NCBI RefSeq assembly: GCF_014131695.1
Contig: NZ_CP036346.1
Location: 124,001-188,000 of the forward strand
DNA: 64,000 nucleotides
Reading direction: 5' to 3'
Source: Thomasclavelia ramosa DSM 1402
Lineage (GTDB): Bacteria; Bacillota_I; Bacilli_A; Erysipelotrichales; Coprobacillaceae
Each line of letters opens with the position of its first letter. Positions within the stretch are counted from its first letter, which is position 1. The translations under genes and the position numbers were made by a program. This document shows, one piece after another, positions 4,037 through 50,731 of the stretch. The notes under the pieces were generated by a model. It was not told the origin of the DNA. It worked only from the letters and a program-made list of their open reading frames with translations, and made no database searches.

Positions 4037-5524
<1,488 letters not shown>

Positions 5525-5531
5525 GATAAGA

Positions 5532-5567
5532 AAGATAGGTTCGTTTCATTAATATCCTATCTTTTTA
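5532..5567 (+). terminator. Terminator of the murQ operon
   Basis: Stem AAGATAGG (5532-5539) with CCTATCTT (5556-5563), followed by a T run, directly after the GH1 stop codon. Confidence 0.75.
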
Positions 5568-5670
5568 TCTTGTTTTACGTAATAAACCGTATCTTTACGA
5601 CAAAAATATCGTGAATTTTCATAAGTAATAGTATAATGATTATGTGAATTTATGGGAGAGTAAAGATAAA

Positions 5671-6621
5671 ATGAAGAAAATAAAAGACTATATTTTAGCT
5701 CATAAGATCAAGGTAACGATCATAATTATTATTTTATTAGGTATTATTGGTGCATTGGGGAAAGAGCAACCGAAATTAATACTTAAACAGAATACTGTTA
5801 ATCTAGAATATGGAGAAAATTTTAATTATTTAGATTATGTTGATAAGAATAAATTTGATGAAGAAGATATTTCATATAGCTGTGATGGTTTTGATGAAGA
5901 TAATCCAGCAGTAGGTAAATATACTATCACTTATAAATATGGTAATAGTAAAAAGAAATTAACGCTTAATATCAAAGATACGACAGCACCGCAATTAATC
6001 CAAACAAAAGAAATTGATATTATTGAAAATGATGAAATAGATTATCGTGATTATTTAGAAATAAAAGAACTATCAAAATATGAGCTTGAAATTGATGATA
6101 GTGGTGTAAGTTATTTAGCAGCTGGAAATTATAATGCTAGTATTAAGGCAAGTGATAAATACGGAAATACATCTACCTTGATCATGCCAGTAAGTATTAA
6201 GGCATTAGAATTAGAGCTTTCAACTACTACATTAAATCTAGAAGAAAATCAAAATAATACTATAAATATAAAAACAAATAGTACTCAACCGGTAGTTTAT
6301 ACATCTAGTGATGAAACGATTGCGACAGTTGATCAAAGTGGAAATATTAAAGCATTAAAATCAGGAACGGTAAAAATAACAGCAGCAATTAAAAATAAAT
6401 CAGTTACATGTAATGTGACCGTAAAAGGAAAACCGGTAGAAACATCCTCTATTCGAACTCCTGTGGCAGATGATAATATTTCTACAACTGTTTATATTAC
6501 TAAGACAGGAGACTGCTATCATTCAAGTGGTTGTGGCTATTTATCACGTAGTAAAATAGCTATCTCAAAATCTACTGCAATAAATACAGGATATCGCCCT
6601 TGCAGTAGATGTCATCCATAG
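5671..6621 (+). CDS. Membrane-anchored Ig-like surface protein with C-terminal Cys motif
   Basis: Start at 5671 is preferred: GGGAGAG (5654-5660) is correctly spaced, while the open frame back to a GTG at 5644 has none. The 316-residue product has one N-terminal hydrophobic anchor (about 13-30), then a DUF5011/cadherin-like beta domain ending KDTTAPQL, a second beta domain, and a bacterial Ig-like group 2 domain (about 185-260, with YTSSDETIATVD and SGTVKITA). It ends in about 40 residues with four cysteines and two nearby histidines (DCYHSSGCGYLS ... YRPCSRCHP), resembling a small zinc- or disulfide-stabilised module. Likely displayed outside the membrane. Function unknown. Flanked by terminators, so monocistronic. 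Confidence 0.8.
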   Translation: MKKIKDYILAHKIKVTIIIIILLGIIGALGKEQPKLILKQNTVNLEYGENFNYLDYVDKNKFDEEDISYSCDGFDEDNPAVGKYTITYKYGNSKKKLTLNIKDTTAPQLIQTKEIDIIENDEIDYRDYLEIKELSKYELEIDDSGVSYLAAGNYNASIKASDKYGNTSTLIMPVSIKALELELSTTTLNLEENQNNTINIKTNSTQPVVYTSSDETIATVDQSGNIKALKSGTVKITAAIKNKSVTCNVTVKGKPVETSSIRTPVADDNISTTVYITKTGDCYHSSGCGYLSRSKIAISKSTAINTGYRPCSRCHP

Positions 6622-17749: not shown

Positions 17750-17919
17750 ATGTATACAGTAATTATTGGGGATACTAAGAACTAGTATTAACAGCAAGGT
17801 CGATTGCATGTTATAATAAGATTGCAGAAGATAGTGATTTTGCCGAATATTATCTGATTGGGACACTTTATAGTGTCCTTATAACAATTTTATTTTATAT
17901 TATTTTGTTTAAAATATAA
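17750..17919 (+). pseudogene. Fused remnant of a SatD-like gene and a DUF3307-like membrane gene
   Basis: ATG at 17750 opens MYTVIIGDTKN followed by a stop, matching the conserved start of SatD-family proteins (MY.VIIGD). In another frame, from about 17782 to the stop at 17917, the DNA encodes LVLTARSIACYNKIAEDSDF then a hydrophobic tail, resembling the C-terminus of the DUF3307 membrane protein that commonly follows satD. The two genes thus appear joined by an internal deletion near 17780. A terminator remains downstream. Family matches are from memory, so moderate confidence. Confidence 0.55.
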
Positions 17920-18126: not shown

Positions 18127-18468
18127 ATTGCAAAAGGAGTTATCTATTTTGCGGGAATCTTTTGACCACTCTTAGGAGTTAAAGCCATACGGACAGCTAG
18201 GTCAAAGGCCGGACCGGCAACTTTGTTGCCTTATTGATAGAACGAAAGTTCGAATTTTATAAGTTGATGCTAAATTCCTTAGCATTGAGTTGGTGACTAT
18301 ACAACCGTGTGCTTAGGCACATCACACTTGTGAAACAATCAATAAGAGTAGTAAAAGTAATTCTTGCTATATAGACTCTGACGCTAATAATATAGGATAT
18401 TTTTTGATGTTCTAATAATATGTCGTATTGATACTCAAGTGGGATTGTACCTGCTTGAGTTTTTTTTA
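18127..18468 (+). ncRNA. Structured leader RNA or small RNA upstream of speD, family not identified
   Basis: About 340 bases, richer in G+C than the surrounding intergenic DNA, with many perfect helices: TTTGACC/GGTCAAA (18161-18167 with 18200-18206) enclosing ACTC-TTAG-GAGT (18168-18179); GGCAAC-TTT-GTTGCC (18216-18230); TTATTGAT/ATCAATAA (18231-18238 with 18338-18345) closing a multibranch region that holds GAAC-GAAA-GTTC (18240-18251, a GNRA loop), ATGCTAA/TTAGCAT (18267-18285) and TGTGC-TTAG-GCACA (18308-18321). A good promoter precedes it and a terminator ends it, 10-20 bases before the speD ribosome binding site. This is the layout of a terminator-type riboswitch or of a stand-alone RNA with its own terminator. 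It does not match the SAM, lysine, T-box, ykkC or tmRNA consensus that I know. Confidence 0.65.
18433..18468 (+). terminator. Intrinsic terminator in front of speD
   Basis: ACTCAAG (18433-18439) plus GGG pairs with CC and CTTGAGT (18454-18460) and is followed by eight T. TTGAGT at 18285-18290 in the upstream hairpin region could pair with ACTCAA (18433-18438) and so act as an antiterminator; this alternative fold is only an inference. Confidence 0.8.
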
Positions 18469-44364: not shown

Positions 44365-46470
44365 ATGAAGACTAGAGTTTTTGGGATTTTACAAAGGATT
44401 GGTCGCAGTTTTATGCTGCCGATTGCAGTATTGCCAATTGCGGGTTTATTTCTGGGAATTGGTAGTTCATTGACTAATGAAACAACTATTTCTTCACTAC
44501 ATTTAGAGGGAGTTTTAGGAAACGGGACTTTTTTACATGACTTTTTAATAATCTTAACTAAAGTGGGGAGTGGCCTTTTTAACAATCTACCACTTATTTT
44601 TGCTGCTGCAGTAGCGTTGGGAATGGCGAAAAAGGCGAAAGAAGTAGCCGTTTTATCTTCAATTATTGCTTTTTTTGTTATGCATACAACAATTAGCGGG
44701 ATGCTTTCATTAAATGGAAGTATTTTAGATAATCAAATAATTAATCCTGATGTTTTAGATGGAACGATTACAGCGGTTTGTGGGATCATGTCATTGGAAA
44801 TGGGGGTATTTGGTGGAATAATCGTCGGTCTTGGCGTTAGTTATATACATAATCGCTTTTATCAAATTGAATTACCAAGAGCGTTATCTTTTTTTGAAGG
44901 AGAACGGTTTATTCCGATAATTTCAACAATAACTTTTTTGTTTGTGGGAATCGTAATGTTTTATGTTTGGCCATTCTTTCAAAATGGTATATATGAATTA
45001 GGTAAACTTATCTCAACCTCAGGCTATTTTGGAACCTTTGTTTACGGTGTAATTAAACGGTTACTGGTTCCTTTTGGCTTACATCATGTATTTTATTTAC
45101 CATTTTGGCAAACTGCAATTGGAGGTTCAATGGTCGTCAATGGGGCGGTAATTTATGGTGGTCAGAATATTTTCTTCGCACAGTTAGCTGATCCAAATAT
45201 TGTGCATTTTAGTAGCGAGGCTACAAAATATTTTACTGGTGAATTTATTTTTATGATTTTTGGTTTACCGGGAGCAGCATTGGCAATGTATCAGACTGCT
45301 AAGCCGGAAAATAAAAAAGCGATTGGAAGTTTGTTGTTCTCAGCGGCTTTAACAAGCATCTTAACGGGAATAACGGAACCAATCGAATTTACTTTTTTGT
45401 TTGCTGCTCCACTGTTATTTGGGGTACAAGTTATCTTAGCAGGAAGTGCTTATATGGTTGCTCATATTTTTAATATTGCCGTGGGATTGACCTTTTCTGG
45501 AGGTTTATTTGACTTTATTGTTTTTGGTGTATTGCAAGGTAATAGTAAGACTAGCTGGGTATTGCTTATCCCTATTGGAATAATTTATTTCATGCTCTAT
45601 TATTTTAGTTTTAAATATCTAATTAAAAAATTTGATTTGAAGACTCCAGGTAGAGAGATAGATAATATGAAGTTATCTATCTTTAAGAACCCTAAAGCAA
45701 GTCATCGAAAATTGTTAAATAAAGGAATTGAAATTGACAAACAGTCACAATTGATTGTTCGAGGGCTAGGTGGTCGTGATAATTTTACTGACTTAGATTG
45801 TTGTATTACCAGATTACGAGCAACAGTTAGTGATAATCAATTAGTAAATGAAGGTTTATTGAAACAATCAGGGGCAGCGGCAGTTGTTATGCAAGGAAAT
45901 GGAGTTCAGATAATTTATGGTCCTAAAGCATCATCGATCAAATCAAAGCTGGACGAGTATTTAATAAATATTCCTGATGAATTAGATGATTATCAACTGG
46001 AAAAAGAGACTGATCATACTAATCTTGAATTAGGCAATATTGTTGATGGTGAGGTTTTGCCAATTGAACAGGCTCCAGATCAAATTTTTTCACATAAGCT
46101 GTTAGGTGATGGGGTTATGATCAAGCCATTTCACGGTTTGATCGTTGCCCCTTGTGATGGTGAGATAACAATGATCTATCCAACAAAACATGCAATTGGA
46201 ATGAAATTAGATAACGGATATGAATTGTTGATTCATTTTGGAACTGATACAGTTAATTTAAATGGAACTGGTTTTGAAATATTAGTTAAATTAAATCAAA
46301 GAGTGCAAAAAGGTGATTTAATTTGGAATGCAGATTTAGAGTATATTAAAGAAAATGCTTTAGATGAAAGTATTTTGTTAATATTTACAAATCTATCAAA
46401 TGATTTAAAGATTGAAAAAGAATATGGTAAAATAAAGAGCGGGAGTACAATTATGAAGATTTGCAACTAG
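44365..46470 (+). CDS. Glucose-family PTS transporter EIICBA
   Basis: Start at 44365 follows CGGAGGG. The 701-residue protein has IIC (about 1-425, ten helices), IIB (about 455-530, phospho-Cys480 in DLDCCITRLR) and IIA (about 570-700, His609 and phospho-His624 in ELLIHFGTDTV) fused in that order, as in Bacillus PtsG and maltose/GlcNAc relatives. It brings in and phosphorylates glucose or a related hexose or glucoside. Followed within 17 bases by an antiterminator gene. Sugar specificity cannot be fixed from sequence. Confidence 0.92.
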   Translation: MKTRVFGILQRIGRSFMLPIAVLPIAGLFLGIGSSLTNETTISSLHLEGVLGNGTFLHDFLIILTKVGSGLFNNLPLIFAAAVALGMAKKAKEVAVLSSIIAFFVMHTTISGMLSLNGSILDNQIINPDVLDGTITAVCGIMSLEMGVFGGIIVGLGVSYIHNRFYQIELPRALSFFEGERFIPIISTITFLFVGIVMFYVWPFFQNGIYELGKLISTSGYFGTFVYGVIKRLLVPFGLHHVFYLPFWQTAIGGSMVVNGAVIYGGQNIFFAQLADPNIVHFSSEATKYFTGEFIFMIFGLPGAALAMYQTAKPENKKAIGSLLFSAALTSILTGITEPIEFTFLFAAPLLFGVQVILAGSAYMVAHIFNIAVGLTFSGGLFDFIVFGVLQGNSKTSWVLLIPIGIIYFMLYYFSFKYLIKKFDLKTPGREIDNMKLSIFKNPKASHRKLLNKGIEIDKQSQLIVRGLGGRDNFTDLDCCITRLRATVSDNQLVNEGLLKQSGAAAVVMQGNGVQIIYGPKASSIKSKLDEYLINIPDELDDYQLEKETDHTNLELGNIVDGEVLPIEQAPDQIFSHKLLGDGVMIKPFHGLIVAPCDGEITMIYPTKHAIGMKLDNGYELLIHFGTDTVNLNGTGFEILVKLNQRVQKGDLIWNADLEYIKENALDESILLIFTNLSNDLKIEKEYGKIKSGSTIMKICN

Positions 46471-46486: not shown

Positions 46487-47311
46487 ATGTATAAGATCAT
46501 TAAAGTATTAAATAATAATACTATTTTAGCTTGTAATGAGACTGAAGAAGTTATTATTATGTATAAAGGAATTGGATTTTCAAAGAAAGTGGATGATTAT
46601 TTTGAAGTACCACGGAATGCTAAAAAATTTCTTATGCAAAAGGGATATAAAGCTAAAAGTGGTTCAAATGATATAATCAATTATATTGATCCAGTTTATT
46701 TAGAAATAGCATCAGAGATTATTAGACTGATAATAGAGAAATTTGGAAAAATTGATAATGATATCTTATTACCATTAGCGGATCATATCTATTTTGCAAT
46801 AAAGCGAATGGATGAAAATATAATGCCTTTAAATCCATTTATCAATGATATTCGTTTGCTGTTTCCTGATGAATATGAGGTTGCATTAGAAGGACGGGAA
46901 GTAATTAATAAGTTTATATCACGAATGATCAATGATGATGAAGTTGGCTTTATTACACTACATATTCATTCAGCAATTTCTTCTAATCAAGTTGCTGAGT
47001 CAATGGAGGCAACACGAATTATTCATGAAAGTATTATTAAATTAGAAAATGATCTTAATATTGTTATTGATATTCAATCAGTTTCATATGCTCGATTAAT
47101 GAATCATATTAAATTTTTAATTTTAAGATTAAATAAAAATGAAGAATTGCAGATGGATATAAGTGAATTTACTAAAGATAAGTTTCCTTTTGCATATGAA
47201 CAGGCAAGTAACATGTGTGAAGCATTATCAAAGGTTTTAAAAAAGAAATTACCAGAGACAGAAGTAGGATATCTGGCATTACATTTGGAAAGAATATTGT
47301 CAAGTATTTAA
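46487..47311 (+). CDS. BglG/LicT-family transcription antiterminator
   Basis: 274 residues: N-terminal RNA-binding CAT domain (about 1-55, starting YKIIKVLNNNTILACN) and two PTS-regulated PRD domains with conserved histidines, among them LADHIYFAIKR, LHIHSAIS and YLALHLERI. It binds a RAT hairpin in nascent mRNA and prevents termination when sugar is present; PTS phosphorylation of the PRDs sets activity. The only RAT in the window lies right after this gene, before the mannose PTS, which is therefore its likely target. Confidence 0.92.
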   Translation: MYKIIKVLNNNTILACNETEEVIIMYKGIGFSKKVDDYFEVPRNAKKFLMQKGYKAKSGSNDIINYIDPVYLEIASEIIRLIIEKFGKIDNDILLPLADHIYFAIKRMDENIMPLNPFINDIRLLFPDEYEVALEGREVINKFISRMINDDEVGFITLHIHSAISSNQVAESMEATRIIHESIIKLENDLNIVIDIQSVSYARLMNHIKFLILRLNKNEELQMDISEFTKDKFPFAYEQASNMCEALSKVLKKKLPETEVGYLALHLERILSSI

Positions 47312-47350
47312 AAATATATTATTTTGAAATAATAATTTTTAAATGATTTC

Positions 47351-47379
47351 TTGACAGAAAAGGCTTACAATGATAATAT
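47351..47379 (+). promoter_or_regulatory. Promoter of the mannose-family PTS operon
   Basis: Perfect -35 TTGACA (47351-47356), 17-base spacer, TAATAT (47374-47379). The RNA would start near 47386, just ahead of the RAT. Confidence 0.65.
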
Positions 47380-47403
47380 TGTTTCATAAATTGAATATTT
47401 TAT

Positions 47404-47433
47404 AGTGTGTAACTGATAAAGCAGGCATTAACT
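47404..47433 (+). promoter_or_regulatory. Ribonucleic antiterminator (RAT) site
   Basis: A 30-base element whose core TAACTGATAAAGCAGGCA closely matches the RATs of Bacillus sacB and licS/bglP leaders. AGT at its start pairs with ACT at its end. Its 3' half (from 47422) is also the 5' arm of the terminator downstream, so binding of a LicT-type protein and termination are mutually exclusive. Confidence 0.85.
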
Positions 47434-47495
47434 ATTTAAAAAAAGAACAAAGATGGTATTTTTGTATCTTTTAATAATAGTTTGCCTGTTTTTTT
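47422..47495 (+). terminator. RAT-controlled terminator of the mannose PTS leader
   Basis: CAGGCATTAACTATT (47422-47436) pairs with AATAGTTTGCCTG (47476-47488) with a small bulge, followed by seven T. It lies 40 bases upstream of the first gene. Confidence 0.85.
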
Positions 47496-47533
47496 GCGTT
47501 ATAAAGTATTTAAAAGAAAGGGAGGAATTTATA

Positions 47534-48523
47534 ATGGTAGGAATTATTCTTGCTAGTCATGGTGAGTTTGCTAACGGGATTCTACAATCCGGGGCAATGA
47601 TCTTTGGAGATCAAGTCGATGTAAAAGCAGTTACTTTGCAACCAAGTGAAGGACCTGATGATCTTAAAGCAAAAATGGAAGCGGCAATAGCTACTTTTGA
47701 AAATCAAGACGAAGTACTATTTTTAGTTGATTTATGGGGTGGTACACCATTTAATCAGGCTAATGGATTAATTGCTGGTCATGAAGATAAGTGGGCAATC
47801 GTTACGGGTTTAAATTTACCAATGCTGATTGAGACTTATGCTTCTAGAATGTCGATGGAAACAGCGCATGAAATTGCTAAACATGTTACTGAAGTTGCTA
47901 GAGAAGGGGTAAAAGTAAAACCTGAAGAATTAGAACCAGAAACGAAAGTAGCGGCTCAAGCTATTAATACACAGTCACAAGGAGCTATTCCTGAGGGAAC
48001 TGTATTAGGGGATGGACATATTAAATATGTTCTGGCACGAATTGACACGCGTTTATTGCATGGTCAAGTTGCAACTACTTGGACTAAAACAACACAACCA
48101 AATCGAATCATCGTTGTTTCTGATGCTGTTTCAAAAGATAAATTACGGAAACAGATGATTGAACAAGCCGCGCCACCAGGAGTTAAGGCTAATGTTGTTC
48201 CAATTGATAAAATGATTCAAGTGGCTAAAGATCCACGTTTTGGTAATACCAAAGCAATGTTATTATTTGAAACACCTCAAGATGCATTACGGGCAATCGA
48301 AGGCGGTGTAGATATTAAAGAATTAAATATTGGTTCAATGGCTCATTCAATTGGTAAAGTGGTAGTAAATAAAGCTATTGCAATGGGGCCGGAAGATATT
48401 GAAACAATTGAAAAAATTAAAGCTAAAGGAATTACTTTTAATGTTCGTAAAGTACCAAGTGATTCAAATGAAAATATTGATACGCTTTTAAAGAAAGCAA
48501 AAGCAGAATTGAAAAATGTTTAA
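47534..48523 (+). CDS. Mannose-family PTS component IIAB
   Basis: Start at 47534 is set by AAGGGAGG upstream; earlier in-frame codons fall in the leader. The 329-residue cytoplasmic protein joins IIA (phospho-His9 in ILASHGEF) through a Pro/Glu-rich linker to IIB (about 160-329, phospho-His176 in DTRLLHGQVATTW). It passes phosphate from HPr to the incoming sugar, typically mannose, glucose or glucosamine. First gene of IIAB-IIC-IID-DUF956. Confidence 0.94.
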   Translation: MVGIILASHGEFANGILQSGAMIFGDQVDVKAVTLQPSEGPDDLKAKMEAAIATFENQDEVLFLVDLWGGTPFNQANGLIAGHEDKWAIVTGLNLPMLIETYASRMSMETAHEIAKHVTEVAREGVKVKPEELEPETKVAAQAINTQSQGAIPEGTVLGDGHIKYVLARIDTRLLHGQVATTWTKTTQPNRIIVVSDAVSKDKLRKQMIEQAAPPGVKANVVPIDKMIQVAKDPRFGNTKAMLLFETPQDALRAIEGGVDIKELNIGSMAHSIGKVVVNKAIAMGPEDIETIEKIKAKGITFNVRKVPSDSNENIDTLLKKAKAELKNV

Positions 48524-48548: not shown

Positions 48549-49364
48549 ATGTCTTTAATTACAATAATCTTAATTATTATAATTGCCTTACTAGCGGGGA
48601 TGGAAGGAATTCTGGATGAGTTCCAATTTCACCAACCGTTAGTGGCATGTACTTTAATCGGTTTAGTAAGTGGTCACTTAACTGAAGGGATTATTCTAGG
48701 TGGTTCGCTTCAAATGATTGCATTAGGGTGGGCCAATGTAGGAGCTGCTGTAGCACCAGATGCAGCATTAGCTTCTGTAGCTTCATCAATTATTATGGTA
48801 TTAGGTTTAGAAGGTGGAGCAACTGATGTGCAAACAGCTATTTCTACTGCAATCGCAGTTGCAATCCCTTTATCAGTAGCAGGTTTATTCTTAACAATGA
48901 TCTGTCGTACTCTTACAATCCCAATTGTTCACTTTATGGATGGGGCAGCCGAACAAGGAAATATGCGTGCAATCGACATGTGGCAAATTTTAGCAATCTT
49001 ATTACAAGGAATTCGAATTGCAATTCCTGCTGCAGCACTTTGTGTTGTTCCTGCGGCAGTTGTAACTGATGCATTAAATCAAATGCCACCATGGCTATCT
49101 GGCGGAATGACTGTTGGTGGTGGAATGGTAGCGGCAGTTGGTTATGCAATGGTAATCAATATGATGTCTACTAAAGAAACATGGCCATTCTTTGCATTAG
49201 GTTTTGTTCTTGCTGCAATCGGTGAATTAACATTGATCGCATTAGGAGCAATTGGTGTTGCTTTAGCAATCATCTATTTAGGATTAAAAGAAAACAGTGG
49301 CTCTAATGGTGGCGGTTCAACAGGTTCTGGAGATCCATTAGGCGATATCTTAAATGACTATTAA
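48549..49364 (+). CDS. Mannose-family PTS component IIC
   Basis: 271-residue membrane subunit forming the sugar channel with IID. Opening segment with ALLAGMEGILDEFQFHQPLV and GLVSGHLTEGIILGGSLQMI is the family signature; about six to eight helices follow. The C-terminus is a Gly/Ser-rich tail (NSGSNGGGSTGSGDPLG), longer and more flexible than typical. AGGGAGG before the ATG. Confidence 0.94.
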   Translation: MSLITIILIIIIALLAGMEGILDEFQFHQPLVACTLIGLVSGHLTEGIILGGSLQMIALGWANVGAAVAPDAALASVASSIIMVLGLEGGATDVQTAISTAIAVAIPLSVAGLFLTMICRTLTIPIVHFMDGAAEQGNMRAIDMWQILAILLQGIRIAIPAAALCVVPAAVVTDALNQMPPWLSGGMTVGGGMVAAVGYAMVINMMSTKETWPFFALGFVLAAIGELTLIALGAIGVALAIIYLGLKENSGSNGGGSTGSGDPLGDILNDY

Positions 49365-49387: not shown

Positions 49388-50305
49388 ATGGCAGAAAAAA
49401 TTAAATTATCAAAAAAAGATCGTATGTCTGTTGCTTGGCGTCATCAGTTCCTTCAAGGTTCTTGGAACTATGAACGTATGCAAAATGGTGGTTGGTGTTA
49501 TTCAATTATCCCAGCAATCAAAAAATTATATCCAAATAAGGAAGATAAAGTAGCGGCTTTAAAAAGACATATGGAATTTTACAATACTCATCCATATGTA
49601 TCAGCGCCAGTCATGGGTGTTACATTAGCATTAGAAGAGGAACGTGCTAATGGAGCAGAAATCAATGATACTGCAATCCAAGGTGTAAAAGTTGGGATGA
49701 TGGGTCCTTTAGCTGGGGTTGGAGATCCTGTCTTCTGGTTTACTCTTAGACCAATTTTAGGAGCATTAGGTGCTTCTCTAGCATTAAGTGGTAATATTAT
49801 TGGTCCATTAATCTTTTTCTTTGCATGGAATATCATTCGTATCGCATTTTTGTGGTATACACAAGAATTTGGATATAAAGTTGGTACTTCAATTGCACAA
49901 GACTTATCTGGTGGATTATTAGGTAAAATTACTCAAGGTGCTTCAATTCTTGGGATGTTCATTATCGGATCATTAGTACAACGTTGGGTAAGTATTACTT
50001 TTACTCCGGTTGTATCAACTGTTACGCAGTCAAAGGGCGCATATATTGATTGGAATAGTTTGCCTTCTGGTGTAGACGGGATCAAATCAGCATTAGAACA
50101 GTTTGCATCATTAGGATCTAATGGTTTAAATGTTGAGAAAGTTACGACCCTACAACAAAATTTAGATCAACTTATTCCAGGTTTATCAGCATTATTATTA
50201 ACATTATTATGCTGTTGGCTATTGAAAAAGAAAGTATCACCAATCGTTATTATCGTTGCTTTATTCATTATCGGAATTCTTGCACGTCTTGGTGGAATAA
50301 TGTAA
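49388..50305 (+). CDS. Mannose-family PTS component IID
   Basis: 305-residue membrane subunit, partner of IIC. Conserved features: RHQFLQGSWNYERMQNGGWC at the N-terminus, MGVTLALEEE, GPLAGVGDPVFW and a final single helix. AAGGAGG precedes the ATG. With IIAB and IIC it completes a working mannose-type permease. Confidence 0.94.
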   Translation: MAEKIKLSKKDRMSVAWRHQFLQGSWNYERMQNGGWCYSIIPAIKKLYPNKEDKVAALKRHMEFYNTHPYVSAPVMGVTLALEEERANGAEINDTAIQGVKVGMMGPLAGVGDPVFWFTLRPILGALGASLALSGNIIGPLIFFFAWNIIRIAFLWYTQEFGYKVGTSIAQDLSGGLLGKITQGASILGMFIIGSLVQRWVSITFTPVVSTVTQSKGAYIDWNSLPSGVDGIKSALEQFASLGSNGLNVEKVTTLQQNLDQLIPGLSALLLTLLCCWLLKKKVSPIVIIVALFIIGILARLGGIM

Positions 50306-50347: not shown

Positions 50348-50731
50348 ATGGTACAATCTTTAAATACTAAAGTAGATTTAACAGTCAAAGCAACTTCTTA
50401 TCTTGGTCTTGCTAATTACGGAGAAGTCATGGTAGGCGATAAAGCATTTGAATTCTATAATGAAAAAAATATTAGAGATTATATTCAAATTCCATGGGAA
50501 GAAGTTAATTGTGTAATGGCTTCAGTTATGTTTAAAGGAAAATGGATTCCTCGCTTTGCCGTTGTTACCAAAAATAATGGGAATTTTACTTTCTCATCAC
50601 GCGATAATAAAGCATTATTACGTGCTATTAATAAATATATTCCCTCAGAAAATTTAGTTCGATCACTTAGTTTTTTTCAAGTAATCAAGCGAGGGTTGAA
50701 ATCATTGTTTAGAAAAAAATCTAGACAATAA
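50348..50731 (+). CDS. manO: DUF956 family protein (ManO-like)
   Basis: 127-residue cytoplasmic protein that regularly follows mannose PTS genes in Bacillota. Seen: SLNTKVDLTVKATSYLGL, GDKAFEFYN and the basic tail. Thought to modulate expression or activity of the PTS; mechanism not established here. AAAGGAGG precedes the ATG; cotranscribed with IID and closed by a terminator. Confidence 0.88.
   Translation: MVQSLNTKVDLTVKATSYLGLANYGEVMVGDKAFEFYNEKNIRDYIQIPWEEVNCVMASVMFKGKWIPRFAVVTKNNGNFTFSSRDNKALLRAINKYIPSENLVRSLSFFQVIKRGLKSLFRKKSRQ

Follow-up and report, generated by a model that had tools for sequence, protein, structure and literature searches.

The genome of Thomasclavelia ramosa DSM 1402, a single contig of 3.25 Mb, carries a mannose-family PTS (man) operon just behind a gene for an antiterminator protein, which raises the question of how the operon is controlled. 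We analysed the stretch of 64,000 nucleotides that holds this locus (positions 124,001 to 188,000 of NZ_CP036346.1), hereafter the window, and coordinates count from its first letter on the + strand unless another sequence is named. The genes lie in the order GH1 glycosidase, isomerase-like protein, EIICBA, antiterminator, man EIIAB, EIIC, EIID and DUF956. The isomerase-like protein upstream of EIICBA is a weak match to class I mannose-6-phosphate isomerase (37 bits, cut-off 116), and EIICBA (44365..46470, 701 aa; Pfam PTS_EIIC, EIIB and EIIA_1) is a permease of the glucose type whose best NCBIfam model is TIGR02002 glcB (507 bits, below its cut-off). The antiterminator gene, glcT1, follows after 16 bp (46487..47311, 274 aa). 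The man operon comprises EIIAB (47534..48523; Pfam EIIA-man and PTSIIB_sorb), EIIC (48549..49364; EII-Sor), EIID (49388..50305; EIID-AGA) and, as its last gene, DUF956 (50348..50731; Pfam DUF956), and it fits the mannose/fructose/sorbose PTS family, with the EIIA-man, EIIB-sorbose, EIIC-sorbose and EIID domains all above the Pfam cut-offs. A ribosome-binding site, GGGAGG, was read at 47520..47525 before the EIIAB start codon at 47534. An upstream EIIAB start at 47453, in frame through the terminator described below, was rejected: some relatives do keep this frame open, but no conserved start codon was seen, and the ribosome-binding site belongs to 47534. The Streptococcus sRNA SpF59 matched at 18163-18212 on the + strand (54.1 bits, gathering 37.2), and Rfam gave no other gathering-level match across the window. 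From the sequence evidence presented here, the man operon probably stands under an RNA switch opened by the antiterminator encoded just upstream, and we hold with good confidence that its leader would serve as a BglG/SacY-family antitermination switch, read by GlcT1 and most likely sensed through EIICBA.

The leader between glcT1 and EIIAB contains a promoter, a ribonucleic antiterminator (RAT) and a terminator, as a preliminary description of this DNA had proposed. The promoter was found by sequence reading and a promoter scan at 47351..47379, with TTGACA at 47351-47356, a 17-base spacer, TAATAT at 47374-47379 and a TG preceding the -10 box (extended -10). Since promoter-like sites are abundant in the AT-rich 1.2 kb (13 against 9.4 in shuffles), the match by itself is weak proof; TTGACA or TTGACG stands in the equivalent position in the 12 leaders compared, the window's own among them. 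Transcription would start at about 47386. The RAT (47402..47435) is indicated by core match, model search (R1), fold and conservation. Its 19-base core, GTAACTGATAAAGCAGGCA, is exact at 47409-47427 and, with up to three mismatches, has this single match in the window (shuffle mean 0.07, n=100; 7 of 100 shuffles with one). In the whole genome the 16-mer ACTGATAAAGCAGGCA occurs exactly once, and with up to three mismatches at 58 places compared with 24 for the reversed control. According to the fold, the RAT pairs through an ATAGT/ACTAT lower stem, a short middle helix and CTG/CAG, with -6.4 kcal/mol (z -1.12); because 27 of 200 shuffles were equally stable, this fold is not striking by itself. 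The intrinsic terminator (47418..47495, T-run 47489-47495) folds with -26.2 kcal/mol and z -5.88, and none of 200 shuffles was as stable. The 3' half of the RAT doubles as the 5' arm of this terminator, so the two structures are mutually exclusive. When each is folded alone, the terminator is the more stable by about 20 kcal/mol, and termination should therefore be the default in this folding model, while keeping the RAT formed should require bound protein. Across the 12 leaders, counting the window's own, 33 of 45 columns of the RAT region are invariant and the core terminator pairs are retained in 9 to 12. RNAalifold recovered the terminator from the whole leader, with one pair showing a two-sided change, and a generic terminator scanner, restricted to loops of 3-8, reported nothing at the man leader.

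To follow this leader in relatives, we collected 26 full-length man EIIAB copies (at least 65% identity) from 25 of the 43 family genomes searched. Twelve of these man leaders, that of the window included, served to build R1, and its high scores are thus partly by construction. The search of relatives suggested by the preliminary description placed a RAT before 17 of the 26 copies, two of them as weak model matches: 15 leaders scored 63.6-74.5 bits, G006 scored 34.9 bits (E 2e-4) and G020 23.4 bits (E 0.045, or 0.026 with filters off), the last being visible by eye together with its terminator. Near the remaining nine copies, R1 with filters off gave nothing above noise. Of the 17 RAT-bearing copies, 16 share their contig with a related antiterminator gene no more than 6 kb away (in G008 and G060 only its C-terminal part is on the contig); in the 17th, G035, the man and antiterminator genes sit on separate contigs, each close to an end. 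In the RAT-less copies the examined flanks, mostly upstream, held no antiterminator gene (0/9). Among the matches listed, those in the RAT-less genomes (G027 left out) are found on a different contig or 24 kb or more from the man copy, and G015 has none. As the genomes are related, these co-occurrence counts are descriptive and do not represent independent events. Most copies whose flank shows it have the order EIICBA-glcT-RAT-man; in G006 and G020 the order is RAT-man-EIICBA-glcT, with the linkage retained, and in G020 the EIICBA/antiterminator unit begins 46 bp after DUF956. G006 has two man copies, both with EIIAB 84.8% identical to the query; only the copy near glcT has a RAT, and at the second neither a RAT (R1, filters off) nor a nearby antiterminator gene was found. 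This conservation and gene linkage support the proposal that the man operon is controlled through the RAT. In the window R1 found only the man site and one noise match at 17861 (14.8 bits, E 4.8), and neither R1 nor reading revealed a RAT in the EIICBA leader, as the preliminary description had stated. Its wider claim, that the gene neighbour of the antiterminator is not its target, agrees with the window, but in G006 and G020 EIICBA and the antiterminator gene are downstream of RAT-man.

In the man leaders, the divergent G020 excepted, conservation falls on the RAT with its flank, and the apical loop is variable; apical loop and spacer hairpin have changed while the RAT stays. When the exact RAT core was used as a search key, only 2 of 98 genomes matched because the apical loop varies, and this key alone would falsely suggest RAT loss. 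A RAT expression applied to GlcT-model matches from the class gave mostly noise, with RATs visible by eye in some, and R1 over 395 class genomes matched in five, all of the same family, under strict filters that lose weak matches. A search with the antiterminator led to the following named relatives, at the identities given: an Erysipelotrichaceae MAG (84%), a Bacillota MAG (73%), two species of Faecalibacillus (71%), which is placed in Coprobacillaceae, and a Massilimicrobiota MAG (69%). Some further arrangements were seen at these loci. The RAT-less man operons of the second G006 copy (L175, 2573-4504) and of G026 (L176, 2372-4441) face a divergent gene that by eye resembles a DNA-binding PRD-type regulator, as if control had been exchanged. 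In G008 the gap separating the antiterminator gene fragment from the man RAT holds an ORF (L109, 464-976, minus strand) that looks XRE-type by eye. The man RAT of G014 comes after a tandem pair of diverged antiterminator genes (L131, 6989-7894 and 7831-8787, minus strand). The neighbouring antiterminators of G014 (34-36%) and G060 (40%) are 34-40% identical to GlcT1.

GlcT1 had been described as LicT-type, and this label needs correction. Among five NCBIfam models GlcT scored best (226.5 bits, LicT 174.4 bits), and in the PDB the best match was B. subtilis GlcT (3rio, 101 bits), with LicT (1tlv) at 74 bits. Both equivalog cut-offs are missed (NF047357 for GlcT, 226.5 versus 320 bits; NF046042 for LicT, 174.4 versus 300 bits), and the protein is best regarded from its sequence as GlcT-like, neither LicT nor to be filed as GlcT itself. 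It has the architecture of the BglG/SacY family, with an N-terminal CAT domain (PF03123, 52.2 bits, cut-off 25) and two PRDs (PF00874 in two stretches). In the alignment, histidines are present at the four usual PRD places, which we take from LicT, the PRD2 histidines included. Together with the overlap of RAT and terminator in the target leader and the linkage in relatives, these features point to GlcT1 as the likely cognate protein of the man RAT.

The genome encodes seven CAT proteins. We compared 13 genome places with GTTACT...AGGCA, nine of which have a GGATT (eight) or GGGTT (one) 5' arm and an AGACC 3' arm, which is a LicT/SacY-like lower stem. The core of the man RAT had been called nearly identical to Bacillus sac/lic RATs, and it does resemble them; the lower stem, ATAGT/ACTAT, is however unlike that of the LicT-like RATs of the genome and is common to RATs near a GlcT paralogue. 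The man RATs and a set of glycosidase RATs have AGTGTGTAACT in common and carry (A/G)CTAT in the 3' arm, a pattern from which G020 departs. The paralogue, GlcT2, is encoded on the minus strand at genome 1908247-1909062; it shares 58% identity with GlcT1 and has a CAT domain. At E <= 0.001, R1 gave 23 matches in 16 of the 43 family genomes, 15 before man and eight elsewhere. Among these eight, the gene that follows encodes an MGH1-like glycosidase (Pfam) of secreted appearance in G000 and G026, and a protein with a similar start in G007:C164. The G003:C30 match precedes a GH3 enzyme (Pfam) and the G007:C177 match a protein with a like beginning; in G003:C11 an AraC-type regulator and then GH3 follow, G007:C126 has a leader identical as compared, and the G014:C91 match lies near a contig end. 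The G026 unit has the order RAT-glycosidase-EIICBA-glcT2. In the genome of the window, the RAT before the MGH1-like glycosidase near glcT2 differs from the man RAT mainly in the apical loop. The EIICBA gene between this glycosidase and glcT2 is broken (L123, taken from genome C1:1904500-1916500; 4704-6268, minus strand), with five tblastn pieces, in-frame stops and frameshifts, and glcT2 and the glycosidase gene are open; this suggests that GlcT2 has been left without a sensor of its own. Two other observations concern the glycosidase loci. A near-palindrome, (G/A)ATGAAAAAGCGCGC(G/A)TTCAT, lies in variants between terminator and glycosidase gene in L123, L124, L125, L121 and L127. In G003 (L125, 1-3954) a GH92 gene with CBM6, of the alpha-mannosidase type, ends just before one of the glycosidase RATs; the contig also carries glcT-RAT-man.

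We propose the following course of events for the man leader. Without active protein, the terminator would form and RNA polymerase would halt at the T-run. If sugar keeps the sensing permease occupied, most likely the adjacent EIICBA, GlcT1 would remain unphosphorylated on PRD1, dimerise, bind the RAT and withhold the 3' arm from the terminator, and the man operon would be read. EIICBA is named as the probable sensor and phosphorylator because it is adjacent to the antiterminator gene and by the model of GlcT in the accessible part of its literature (PMC12445079). Both the binding of GlcT1 to the RAT and its phosphorylation by EIICBA are thus presumed steps, and the inducing sugar would be glucose, mannose or a glucosamine sugar.

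Which protein reads the RAT can be questioned, since GlcT2 has a nearly identical RAT nearby and could bind at the man RAT too. A possible, though less favoured, reading is that the man RAT is read mainly by GlcT2, or by both proteins in one man PTS/secreted-glycosidase regulon with two antiterminators; the similarity of the two proteins, CAT domains included, and of their RATs outside the apical loop agrees with it. However, the apical loops do differ between the man and glycosidase RAT sets, and in G026, where man has no RAT, the only close relative of the antiterminator among the matches listed (62%) is grouped with the glycosidase. The sensor may also be disputed. PRD regulators, LevR among them, are phosphorylated by EIIB proteins of the mannose family, and the PRD2 histidines are present in GlcT1, as would suit a protein regulated mainly by the induced mannose EIIAB, or by HPr alone, in place of the adjacent EIICBA. 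The tandem antiterminators of G014 speak for this as well, as both are without the first PRD1 histidine (ADHI replaced) and yet the RAT-man unit is retained; their phosphorylation control may differ. We still consider it rather unlikely, because EIICBA stands beside the antiterminator gene in the window and in the loci where the flank shows, in both gene orders. It appears very improbable that the leader works without any protein, as a purely constitutive attenuator or as the terminator of the preceding operon: a strong terminator does lie downstream of the EIICBA and antiterminator genes, but a promoter is placed between the antiterminator gene and the terminator, the invariant columns of the RAT region would be needless for a mere terminator, and no RAT is found at the nine man copies without an antiterminator gene in the examined flank. 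The reading preferred here is that of a switch opened by GlcT1 under the probable control of EIICBA.

The man leader may contain one more element. In the minimum-energy fold of the full leader, which is without the RAT, the upstream region and the RAT 5' arm pair with the post-terminator segment, and the terminator hairpin is intact inside. By fold and arm alignment, the 5' arm of this possible outer helix is at 47394..47407, overlapping the RAT 5' arm, and the 3' arm at 47497..47510. The 14-base arms of 14 man leaders (out of 17) were aligned by hand and make up 11 distinct pairs; pairing is seen in 142 of their 154 cells, compared with 30-65% when one arm is slid along the other. When the 3' arms were dealt among the leaders, taken as given and uncorrected for relatedness, the mean was 134.0 (sd 2.2) and 142 was never reached in 5000 deals; the two-sided-change score was reached in 10 of 5000. 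Clear two-sided changes occur in two columns (C-G/U-A and U-A/A-U), and a third column rests on one leader. Against shuffled downstream sequence, the duplex has a mean z of -2.30 in 16 man leaders, and the register of the outer helix is the best duplex in ten of them; G008 has a related but different register, G030, G018 and G035 are shifted, G014 uses another site and G006 has none (z -0.06). In a 22x22 cross-test of arms, the own pair exceeded the row mean in 21 of 22 cases, the exception having a wrongly cut 3' segment. The own pair was the best of its row in 1 of 22 and of its column in 9 of 22, which indicates that the arms of related leaders are largely exchangeable. The mean z was -1.01 for six glycosidase leaders and -0.95 for ten other RAT-like leaders of the genome (nine LicT-like and L134). 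With z below -2.3 in three of these ten controls (L133, L135 and L142), pairing of this sort may occur outside this RAT class as well, and RNAalifold on the whole leader did not propose the helix. We suggest only tentatively that, within a two-paralogue man PTS/secreted-glycosidase regulon, the man leader has a third exclusive element in which, after readthrough, the 14 post-terminator bases pair with 14 of the upstream flank and RAT 5' arm. Such a helix would dissolve the RAT and free the antiterminator for reuse, and it would clamp the mRNA 5' end, which from the place of the promoter should lie about 8 bases before it, in a long closed stem. If the helix is real, RAT reset and protection of the mRNA 5' end are its likely roles, and it would be a built-in reset step for RAT switches.

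The antitermination switch type itself is textbook knowledge. In the man/mpt operons of Listeria and Bacillus, a PRD regulator (ManR/LevR) likewise controls a mannose-family PTS, but it is a DNA-binding activator and not an RNA switch. No title among the open-licence literature matches listed names a RAT-controlled man operon. As in B. subtilis GlcT-ptsG, in the accessible part of its description (PMC12445079), a protein with CAT and two PRDs, a RAT overlapping a terminator and a glucose-type permease as likely sensor come together. In contrast to GlcT-ptsG, the target here is a mannose-family PTS and not an EIIGlc permease, EIICBA precedes the antiterminator gene and is without a RAT, and GlcT1 is below the NCBIfam GlcT cut-off. 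In B. subtilis, as far as the accessible sources tell, SacX senses and SacY acts on sacB (PMC9981650, PMC12502629). As in that system, the sensor permease and the regulated genes are separate units here. The man target differs in being another PTS, and the RAT lower stem differs from that of the sac RAT. The closest precedent is NagY, a BglG/SacY-family protein of E. faecalis which, in the accessible part of its report, binds and co-precipitates transcripts of mannose/fructose-family PTS and glycosidases (PMC12502629); the earlier remark that control of a mannose-family PTS is less common for such proteins is thus a fair one. Unlike GlcT1-man, NagY acts with N-acetylglucosamine, its RATs are FIMO matches at P < 0.01, and the gene order antiterminator-RAT-man is not described for it in that part of the source (PMC12502629).

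In conclusion, the switch type was known already, and the mannose-PTS target class has a precedent in NagY as presented in the accessible text of PMC12502629. The man leader described here would add a mannose-family transporter, in one family of gut bacteria, to the glucose, sucrose and beta-glucoside uptake systems under RNA antitermination. Within the same lineage, other species carry the man operon without the RNA switch, and G006, which has man copies of both kinds, makes this swap of control directly testable.
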